From Cloacibacillus evryensis DSM 19522 (lineage in GTDB: Bacteria > Synergistota > Synergistia > Synergistales > Synergistaceae): a stretch of DNA of 64,000 bases. The notes under the pieces were generated by a model, which ran no database searches, was not told the origin of the DNA, and worked only from the letters and a program-made list of their open reading frames with translations. Within the stretch, counting starts at the first letter, position 1. Each line of letters starts with the position of its first letter. Location: NCBI RefSeq assembly GCF_000585335.1, contig NZ_KK073872.1:785317-849316 (forward strand), given 5' to 3'. Shown in pieces: positions 43,835-47,545 of the stretch. Position numbers and translations under genes: made by a program.

Positions 43835-44851
43835 ATGATCCCATTTGAAGATTTAGATGTCGAGTTTAAAGAGTGTTACGTTCCGGATATAAAAAAGAGG
43901 TATTGGCTTTTGTAAATACAGACGGCGGAGTATTGTCTGTCGGAATCAGCAGGGACGGCAAGGTCGTCGGCGCGGAGGACCCCGACGATGCAATGCTGCG
44001 TATATCTTCCGCGCTGAGAGATTCCATCAGGCCGGACGTGATGCCCTTCGTTCAGCTCAGGGCGGCCGAACGGGAGGGAACGGCTGTCATTGAGATTGCG
44101 GTTCAAACAGGTACGGCGAGGCCTTATTATTTACAGGATAAAGGACTGAGGCCATCCGGTGTATACGTTCGCCGGGGCAGCGCCTCTATACCCCTGAGCG
44201 ACGAAGGTATTCGGGAGATGATCATACAGAACAGCGGAAAATCCTATGAGGACTGCCGCAGCATGGAACAGGATCTTACCTTTCGCGCCTTTGAGAGTGA
44301 GATGGCGGAAAGATCGGTCGAACTGGGAGATTCCCAGATGCGGCCCCTCCATCTCATAGGGGAGGACGGACTTTACACGAACCTGGCGAGGCTGCTCTCC
44401 GACCAGTGCGGCCATACGATCAAAACAGCTATTTTCCAGGGTACGGATAAGGCTGTCTTTCGCAGCAGGCAGGAGTTTTCCGGGTCGCTTCTCAAACAGC
44501 TGCGCGACGTCTATCAGCTGGTAGATATAAACAATAAAACAAAGGCGACCTTTTCCGGCCTGAACCGCACGGACTTCGCAGTCGCGGAACCCCAATCTTG
44601 CCGCGGTATTTTATCGTATGAGGCTGATCGAGAGCTATGGGACCGGCATTGGGAAAATCATCCGCCTCTATAGCGGCGAGGGGAAAGAGCCCCAGTTTGA
44701 GACGGCCAAAGGAGCATTCCGCGTCACACTTCCAAACCGCAACGAAGATGGGCCGAAGGCACGGTTTGCGGAACCGATAGATACGCTGCCTGAGAATGCC
44801 GTCGGCGCCGGCTTGAAGGAAGCGGCAAAAACAGCGTATACATGCCGGTGA
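43835..44851 (+). pseudogene. AlbA_2/Schlafen-type ATP-binding regulator, frameshifted and internally deleted
   Basis: The frame begins MIPFEDLDVEFKE...DIKK at ATG 43835 and hits a stop about 27 codons in. The homologous sequence continues in the -1 frame from KKEVLAFVNTDGG through the AlbA_2 domain (GVYVRRGSASIPLSDE) and middle region to NKTKATFSGLNRTDF (about 44580). The next homologous segment, RNPNLAAVFYRMRLIESYGTG, is in another frame. The HRDY-containing GHKL-like part, about 55 residues, is missing, and the C-terminal winged helix is also short. The early shift sits on A-AAA-AAG, a known slippery heptamer. Two independent lesions make a dead gene the best reading. Confidence 0.8.
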
Positions 44852-44956: not shown

Positions 44957-45628
44957 ATGATAAATTCTGTACTTCCCTACTGGGACCAAAATATCGACCT
45001 CGACATCGCGCCGTGGGTTCCTTACGGAAAAGATTACTCGCCAGTGACGGTGAACAGGCTCTATGATCCGCTCCTTGGCAGCCTTGCGGGGCTTGCGCTT
45101 GAGATGAAGAGCGAGTTCCTCTATCTGCGCAGTTTTCAGAGCGGAAATATTGGCACGATGGCGCGCCAGAATATGATCGATCCCGGACGCAACGGAGGGA
45201 TAGAGCTTGGCTTCACTATGGTCTTCTCCTACTCCGAGATGCTTGAGCATTCGGTCCTGCCGTTGCTGCGCCAATATCCGGGGCTGATGGCGGGGCTCAC
45301 TCTATGCGATATATGGAGCGAGAACGTCCTTGTGGATGAATGCAAGGTGCTGCTGCTCGTCAACGAAGACCCGTTCTTTAACGAGGGGGCTTTCATGGAA
45401 TCGCTCTATAAGTCGTTTCAGGTATTTGCGGGACGCGAAAACTCAAATCTTTCGTTCTTTGCCGAGAAGTTCGGCTATCGGCGTTTTTCCATAAGCTATG
45501 AAACGGACAATCTCACGCAGATGCGGATAACGCAGGCTCTGTTCGACATGGAGCTGGACGCGACGAAGGACGTCCTCGGCCCCGTGCCGGAGCTGAAGAT
45601 CCCGCCGCTGCCGTCGATCGGGCAGTGA
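44957..45628 (+). CDS. Hypothetical protein, 223 residues
   Basis: I do not recognise this family. The frame is supported by AAGGAGG 9 nt before ATG 44957, normal codon use and a terminator just after the stop. The protein is soluble, with no signal peptide or membrane span. It is acidic, has one Cys (about 117, in TLCDIWSENVLVDECK, with a second at about 125) and a Pro-rich tail (VPELKIPPLPSIGQ). Aromatic residues cluster in the first 30 positions (PYWDQNI...APWVPYGKDY). It stands alone between the AlbA-type pseudogene and the convergent methyltransferase. Confidence 0.75.
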   Translation: MINSVLPYWDQNIDLDIAPWVPYGKDYSPVTVNRLYDPLLGSLAGLALEMKSEFLYLRSFQSGNIGTMARQNMIDPGRNGGIELGFTMVFSYSEMLEHSVLPLLRQYPGLMAGLTLCDIWSENVLVDECKVLLLVNEDPFFNEGAFMESLYKSFQVFAGRENSNLSFFAEKFGYRRFSISYETDNLTQMRITQALFDMELDATKDVLGPVPELKIPPLPSIGQ

Positions 45629-45701: not shown

Positions 45702-46472
45702 CTATGGTTTCACCGCGGTTATGAGGGCGCTTGCCGACACTCCCTCGATATCTCTCATGTCGTCTGCCGTGAGGTCCATGACGCTGCTCTTTACCACTTC
45801 GATGTTTATCTCGTGCGGTTTGGTTATCGTCACGCTGACTTGCGTAAATCCCGCTTTCTTGAGTTTTTCCGCGTACTCTTCCGCCGGAAGAGCGCCGGCT
45901 ACTCACCCTGACCAGGCGGCGGGGCTCTTTTTCAGCTTTTCAGGCACCCTTTTCATCAGCACGACATCCGAGACGCAGAAGCGTCCGCGGCTTGAGAGTA
46001 CGCGGAATGCCTCGCCAAAGACCCTGTCTTTGTCCGGAGAGAGGTTGATGACGCAGTTCGAGATCAGCACGTCGACGCCGCCGTCGTGCAGCGGTATATC
46101 TTCGATGTAGCCGCGCAGCAGGGTTATGTTCCGGAATCCGAGCCGGTCGATGTTCTTTCTCGCCTTGTCGAGCATCGCCTTCGTCATGTCGAGGCCGTAG
46201 ACGTGCCCCTCCGTACCGACGCGTTTGGCCGCCAGCAGCAGGTCCAGCCCCGCGCCGCTTCCAAGATCGAGCACGCGCTCGCCCGGCTTGAGCAGGGCCG
46301 CCTCGATGGGGTTTCCGCAGCCGAATGTCTGTACCGGCAGGTCCCGCAGCGTCTCTTCGTCATAGTTGTCTTTTGTCATATCGCTGATCGAAAGCGTCTC
46401 TTCGCCGCCGCGCGATACCGCCTCCGTATATGCCTGTTTGATCGATTCCCGTATATCCGGCAATTCGCACAC
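45702..46472 (-). CDS. arsM: ArsM-type arsenite methyltransferase with in-frame UGA (likely selenocysteine)
   Basis: The frame runs from GTG 46472 to TAG 45702-45704, 256 codons, interrupted only by TGA at codon 190 (45903-45905). Before it are SAM motif I LDLGSGAGLD, Cys52 in FGCGNP and Cys140 in SNCVINLSPDK. After it the homology continues unbroken (VAGALPAEEYAEKLKKAGF) to a normal end. Known ArsM enzymes bind As(III) with three cysteines; in the Cyanidioschyzon enzyme these are 72, 174 and 224. The 174-to-224 gap of 50 equals the 140-to-190 gap here, so the UGA replaces the third Cys. A tight hairpin follows at SECIS distance. A nonsense mutation is the alternative, but the clean downstream frame argues against decay. 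Confidence 0.8.
45871..45895 (-). promoter_or_regulatory. Candidate bacterial SECIS element
   Basis: Directly downstream of the UGA, CTCTTCC-GGC-GGAAGAG forms a perfect 7-bp stem with a G-first loop. The loop begins 18 nt after the UGA. A GCG/CGC lower stem with a 2-nt bulge extends it. Size, distance and loop G agree with the loose bacterial SECIS pattern. Function needs SelB, which is not in the window. Confidence 0.6.
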
Positions 46473-46499: not shown

Positions 46500-46556
46500 A
46501 TCGTATTGACAGATGTCGATACGATTATATTATAGCAATATATTCAAGAAAATCAA
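46500..46556 (-). promoter_or_regulatory. Promoter and operator of the arsM-like gene
   Basis: On the minus strand, TTGATT (46551-46556) and TATAAT (46529-46534) are spaced by 16 nt. ATCGTAT-N12-ATACGAT (46500-46506 with 46519-46525) covers the expected +1 region. This indicates a regulated promoter, perhaps bound by an ArsR-type repressor, though no arsR is nearby. Confidence 0.55.
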
Positions 46557-46561
46557 TATGT

Positions 46562-47545
46562 CTATCTGTTTTCCGCAAGGACTTTGAGGAGCTTTGCCTC
46601 GTCGATGTTTCCGCCAGAAACGACGATGCCGGTCCTGCGTCCCCCGACGGGGGCCTTTCCGGCCAGCAGCGCCGCGATGCCCACGGCGCCGGCCCCCTCG
46701 ATCACCTGGTGCTGTTCGCGGTGCATGAAGGCTATGGCCGCGGCGAGTTCTTTTTCGGTGACTTCCAGTATCCCTTTTACGCGCAGCTTCGCGAGCGAGA
46801 GGAGGCTCTGCGGAATGCCGCCGGCAAGTCCGTCCGCGAGCGTTTCGCCGTATTCGACCTCTTTTACGCTCCCGCCCTCCCAGGAGACGACCCAGGGGTT
46901 CGAGGTATCCGTCTGCACGCCCCATATCTCAACGTTCGGATTCAGCGCCTTCGCGGCGATGGCCACGCCGTTCATCAGGCCGCCGCCGCCGGCCGGAACC
47001 AGCAGCAGCTCGATCTCCGGTTCGTCCATAAACATCTCAAAGCCAGCCGTTCCCTGCCCCGCGATGACCGTCGCGTCCTCGAACGACGAGACGTAGGTTA
47101 TGCCGAGAGACTCGGCGTATTCGTGCGCCGCCCTTTCCGTGAAATCATAATCGCCGTCGGCGACCACGAGCTCTGTGAAGTCCCCGCCGCGCCGGCGGAT
47201 CGCCTCTTTTTTCGTCTCCGGGCAGGTGTCGGGGACGAAGATCCAGGTCTTTATCCCCAGTTCACGGGCGGCCATCGCCACGCCCTGTCCATGATTGCCG
47301 CTCGAGCAGGTCACCACGCCGAGCGCCCTCTCCTCAGGAGAGAGGGAATTCATCTTGTAAAGCGCGCCGCGCAGCTTGAACGAGCCGCAGAGCTGCTGAT
47401 TTTCGAGCTTCAAATAGACAGGCGCGCCGGCCCTTTCGCTCAGCGCGTACGAATATTCCGTCGGCGTGCGGCGCACGCGGCTTTTGAGAAATTTATAGGC
47501 CTTTACTACGTCGGTTATGCCGGGGTTTATCGGGAGCTTGTCCAT
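46562..47545 (-). CDS. tdcB: Threonine/serine dehydratase (PLP-dependent, TdcB type)
   Basis: This 327-residue fold-type II enzyme has the Schiff-base lysine in QLCGSFKLRGA (about 52-62), CSSGNHGQGVA for phosphate binding, and GGGGLMNG as the PLP-phosphate Gly loop. It has no C-terminal ACT domain, so it is the catabolic rather than the feedback-inhibited form. It deaminates threonine to 2-oxobutyrate, or serine to pyruvate. AAGGAGG precedes the ATG. It diverges from the racemase gene at 47669. Confidence 0.93.
   Translation of the reverse strand: MDKLPINPGITDVVKAYKFLKSRVRRTPTEYSYALSERAGAPVYLKLENQQLCGSFKLRGALYKMNSLSPEERALGVVTCSSGNHGQGVAMAARELGIKTWIFVPDTCPETKKEAIRRRGGDFTELVVADGDYDFTERAAHEYAESLGITYVSSFEDATVIAGQGTAGFEMFMDEPEIELLLVPAGGGGLMNGVAIAAKALNPNVEIWGVQTDTSNPWVVSWEGGSVKEVEYGETLADGLAGGIPQSLLSLAKLRVKGILEVTEKELAAAIAFMHREQHQVIEGAGAVGIAALLAGKAPVGGRRTGIVVSGGNIDEAKLLKVLAENR

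Follow-up and report, generated by a model that had tools for sequence, protein, structure and literature searches.

The arsM locus and its genomic neighborhood

The analyzed stretch of DNA (hereafter the window) comprises 64,000 nt of Cloacibacillus evryensis DSM 19522 (NZ_KK073872.1, 785,317-849,316), whose genome is a single contig of 3,488,464 bases; coordinates below refer to the window unless given for the genome. The gene of interest, arsM, occupies 45702..46472 on the minus strand, from a GTG start at 46472 to a TAG stop at 45704-45702. The only in-frame stop inside this frame is a TGA at codon 190 (45903..45905, minus strand), and the frame is open on either side of it, in agreement with a preliminary description of this DNA. 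By the standard code the product ends at 189 residues; with the TGA read as selenocysteine (Sec) it would be a 256-residue protein with one U at position 190. This protein scores 276.9 bits against the NCBIfam arsenite methyltransferase family NF008823 (curated cut-off 263), and its best sequence match among solved structures is the arsenite methyltransferase 5evj (9.2e-36), with further matches to the arsenic methyltransferases 4kw7, 4fr0 and 5eg5.

The gene immediately upstream of arsM, likewise on the minus strand, encodes a PALP-family enzyme (threonine dehydratase-like; 46562-47545), and the end of apparently the same gene, as judged by eye, precedes arsM in L023, L024 and L025. A 12-2-12 inverted repeat, perfect but for one mismatch, lies upstream of arsM (46500..46525). 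It is a possible repressor operator, and no second site in the genome comes within 3 mismatches of it. A possible promoter (TTGATT-16-TATAAT, picked by eye; 46529..46556, minus strand) is located just upstream of the repeat, so that the repeat would overlie the transcription start, a putative layout resembling an ArsR-type operator. The core of the repeat, TTGACATCTGTCAA, is kept at the same place in a genome of the same genus (L022), in which a stricter repeat scan made no call. The convergent neighbor of arsM (44957-45628, plus strand) has no Pfam match at E 0.001. A Schlafen AlbA_2-domain gene at 43873-44851 (plus strand) looks frameshifted, its likely continuation (RNPNLAAVFYRMRLIESYGTGIGKIIRLY...) being in another frame from about 44564.

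Predicted arsenic-ligand positions and Cys/TGA alternation

ArsM enzymes hold As(III) by three Cys thiolates and methylate it with S-adenosylmethionine, disulfides being formed and reduced in each cycle. All three ligand positions of CmArsM (Cys72, Cys174 and Cys224) are matched in our alignment by Cys52, Cys140 and the TGA at codon 190. The predicted first ligand, Cys52 (FGCGNP; codon at 46317..46319, minus strand), is what we take to be the equivalent of Cys72, and the predicted second ligand, Cys140 (SNCVINLSPDK; codon at 46053..46055, minus strand), corresponds to Cys174; both are invariant in the 30 aligned Synergistota proteins (30/30). The distance of 50 codons from Cys140 to the TGA, pointed out in the preliminary description, agrees with the second-to-third ligand spacing of Cys-type ArsM, and by this alignment the third arsenic ligand, residue 190, would be Sec. 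A fourth conserved Cys of CmArsM, Cys44 (PMC5552862), has no evident counterpart in the alignment with the window protein, the N-terminal region of which is short.

Across 188 Synergistota genomes, arsM and nine close relatives have one internal TGA each, and the next best matches have none. At the column of residue 190 the 30 aligned proteins of the phylum show U in 10 and Cys in 20, which is the alternation at the exact site that the preliminary description had proposed to look for. In a wider genome set the same position is Cys in 79 of 80 relatives and TGA in one, from Synergistaceae; this lone record is probably from the same genome as one of the ten rather than an eleventh case. The ten TGA genes span two families of the order, and a tree built from the 30 proteins groups all ten U forms in a single clade (support 100/99), so that one change on the tree suffices to account for them. 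To judge from these sequences, the pattern would look like one Cys-to-Sec exchange followed by inheritance, a 30-protein sample being short of proof of a single origin.

Divergent ArsM-like methyltransferases with a TGA at the third-ligand position also occur in other Synergistota genomes (L140, L141, L142 and L143). Three of them (L140, L141 and L143) lack the equivalent of Cys140 (SNG in place of SNC), and L142 retains SNC. The TGA is thus kept in some proteins in which an arsenic ligand has been lost.

Selection downstream of the TGA

The coding sequence remains under purifying selection 3' of the TGA. Between arsM and its closest relative, the NG86 estimates are dN 0.124 and dS 0.669 before the TGA, and dN 0.054 and dS 0.918 after it. 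Downstream dN is also below dS in the other pairs with usable dS; dS is saturated or undefined for several of the distant pairs, which leaves the weight with the close ones. Homology past the TGA is intact, as had been claimed, and a search of the relatives for random stops and decay found neither.

A conserved SECIS-like hairpin

A bacterial SECIS-like hairpin is located at 45875..45893 (minus strand). It has the form GCUCUUCC-GGC-GGAAGAGU, with a stem of 8 bp (seven Watson-Crick pairs and an outermost G-U) and a loop starting with GG, 17 nt from the UGA. The preliminary description had reported a 7-bp hairpin with a G-first loop, 18 nt after the UGA; its pairs and loop stand, and its spacing is corrected to 17 nt, the loop itself starting at nucleotide 18. 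The published bSECIS model asks for a loop of 3-9 nt, a stem of 4-16 bp, a G in the first two loop positions, a UGA-to-loop distance of 16-37 nt and an MFE of at most -7.5 kcal/mol. In a model-constrained scan, the check suggested at the outset, the arsM hairpin conforms on every count (3 nt, 8 bp, GG, 17 nt and -9.8 kcal/mol).

The 17-nt spacing and a loop of GGC, GUC or GUU are common to all ten TGA genes, across which the letters of the hairpin are almost unchanged, unlike in the Cys genes. The energy limit of -7.5 is reached in 8 of the 10; the remaining two, L025 and L027, have a contiguous stem of 6 bp and -5.2 kcal/mol, above that limit. Among the 20 Cys genes the same scan gave no hairpin fitting the loop and spacing rules in 12; a rule-fitting hairpin was present in eight, and only one of these (L047, spacing 25 nt) passed -7.5.

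The constraint is visible at the codon level as well. Over codons +3 to +11 after the TGA, codon identity at identical residues is 0.81 in the TGA genes (vs 0.51 elsewhere) and 0.49 in the Cys genes (vs 0.49 elsewhere), and the top codon-identity stretch of the entire TGA alignment begins at codon +4. With 1000 synonymous recodings of each gene, between 0 and 3.3% reached the observed stability; for arsM, none of the 1000 gave a model-conforming hairpin as stable. Since, in addition, nine relatives share both the TGA column and the hairpin, we consider the hairpin to be beyond chance.

When an 81-nt neighborhood of the hairpin is folded freely, its stability is not unusual (z -1.04). For this reason we turned to the model-constrained scan, with synonymous recodings as its null, and the case draws its strength from comparison between genes. 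Covariation analysis of the ten TGA genes found 0 pairs changed on both sides and gives no support, because the stem is nearly invariant. A search of the 64-kb window against Rfam gave nothing at the gathering threshold.

Selenocysteine machinery and arsenic genes in the genome

The genome encodes the machinery for selenocysteine. Homologs of selA (566.9 bits), selB (386.1 bits) and selD (316.9 bits) each score over the respective family cut-off, with selA adjoining selB, and a tRNA-Sec is found at 76.2 bits, over the gathering score, and called by ARAGORN as tRNA-SeC with anticodon TCA. All four genes that the preliminary description had named for checking (selA, selB, selC and selD) are thus present, and the absence of selB or selC, which would have spoken against a selenoprotein, is not the case. 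The selD gene (genome position G000:C1:1728349-1729275; L052) carries one in-frame TGA itself, so SelD is probably also a selenoprotein. Synergistetes are described in the literature as rich in selenoproteins. Genes for Acr3 and an ArsP-type permease, located elsewhere in the genome and unlinked to arsM, are consistent with arsenic handling.

Interpretation and alternative explanations

The data directly support an intact frame, membership in the arsenite methyltransferase family, the identity of the site, its conservation, a SECIS-like constraint and the presence of the Sec machinery. From these we infer the incorporation of Sec, the activity on arsenic and the role of selenium. The gene very probably encodes a functional selenoprotein arsenite methyltransferase (ArsM) with UGA 190 decoded as Sec, and the original suggestion of a selenoprotein form of ArsM is supported, the comparative evidence and the Sec machinery both being in its favor. 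In the proposed mechanism, SelB and tRNA-Sec would decode the UGA at codon 190 as selenocysteine, guided by the hairpin that closely follows it. As(III) would be held by Cys52, Cys140 and Sec190 of the complete 256-residue enzyme and would receive methyl groups from S-adenosylmethionine, and the selenolate may serve both as an arsenic ligand and as a fast-cycling partner of the Cys residues upon re-reduction of the enzyme.

A selenoprotein that acts on something other than arsenite, either a different metalloid or a redox partner, is conceivable in principle. Among the neighboring genes of the window none directly beside arsM was seen to be an arsenic gene, which leaves homology as the basis for an arsenic substrate, and the TGA-bearing ArsM-like genes of other Synergistota that have no Cys140 equivalent indicate that Sec at this position is not always tied to three-ligand arsenic binding. 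On the other hand, the window protein retains both other ligand Cys residues and scores above the arsenite methyltransferase cut-off, and we regard a different substrate as improbable. Even harder to uphold is a true stop at the TGA, leaving a pseudogene or a shortened 189-residue protein: the standard code does stop at codon 190, and decay does occur in the region, judging by the apparently frameshifted gene at 43873-44851, but the same TGA recurs in ten genes of two families within one clade, followed by a sequence under purifying selection and a conserved SECIS-like hairpin, and a protein cut short there would lose its third ligand, a position held by Cys in each of the 20 relatives without a TGA that were compared within the phylum. 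The pseudogene reading was rejected on this conservation. Readthrough with another amino acid (e.g. Trp) would satisfy all that is strictly implied, namely readthrough, but is just as implausible given tRNA-Sec, selB and selA in the genome, a hairpin that fits the bSECIS model and an alternative residue in relatives that is always Cys.

A more far-reaching version of the selenoprotein ArsM reading would see in these genes a lineage-specific Synergistota Sec-ArsM with Sec for the third ligand, the fourth Cys lost, a distinct methylation cycle by way of a Cys-Sec bridge and perhaps its own single-copy operator; we put this forward as a speculative, rather unlikely extension.

Comparison with known systems

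The window protein and the selenoprotein arsenite methyltransferases of NF008823/PRK11873 (with WP_011987699.1 as the family's reference selenoprotein) are alike in family and in having one Sec, and the window motif UVAG matches UxxG; there is no difference in kind. Table 1 of PMC13188914 places arsenite methyltransferase (NF008823, UxxG) among the prokaryotic selenoproteins verified by experiment, with reference to Fomenko et al. 2007, and selenoprotein arsenite methyltransferases are also listed in ocean metagenomes (PMC2398784). A survey (PMC5029168) found 41 genes of this type, distributed over 39 organisms, and for C. porcorum the text of PMC12013277 gives a total of 18 known selenoprotein genes but no names. 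As selenoprotein ArsM was already known, a point unmentioned in the preliminary description, the novelty is lower, and the gene adds a member rather than a class. The TGA clade in Synergistota, the single change on the tree in our sample and the conserved SECIS are treated more fully here than in the literature covered.

The ArsM fusion selenoproteins NF041536 (DUF2284), NF041537 (AhpD) and NF047649 (UXPK-star) have the methyltransferase domain and Sec in common with the window protein, which differs from them in having no fused domain and one Sec; its scores are far below their cut-offs (150 vs 575, 158 vs 510 and 170 vs 460 bits, respectively). To Cys-type ArsM (CmArsM; 4fr0, 4kw7, 5evj) it is related over residues 40-231, including the 50-residue spacing of the second and third ligands, and it differs in being shorter, in the missing equivalent of Cys44 and in Sec replacing Cys at the third ligand. 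Overall, this makes a clean comparative case of Sec taking the place of Cys at a metal-ligand residue, in which the phylum itself supplies matched Cys relatives and the SECIS of the TGA genes is visible as synonymous constraint; such Sec/Cys pairs would let one ask what an arsenic methyltransferase gains from Sec in an anaerobic phylum.
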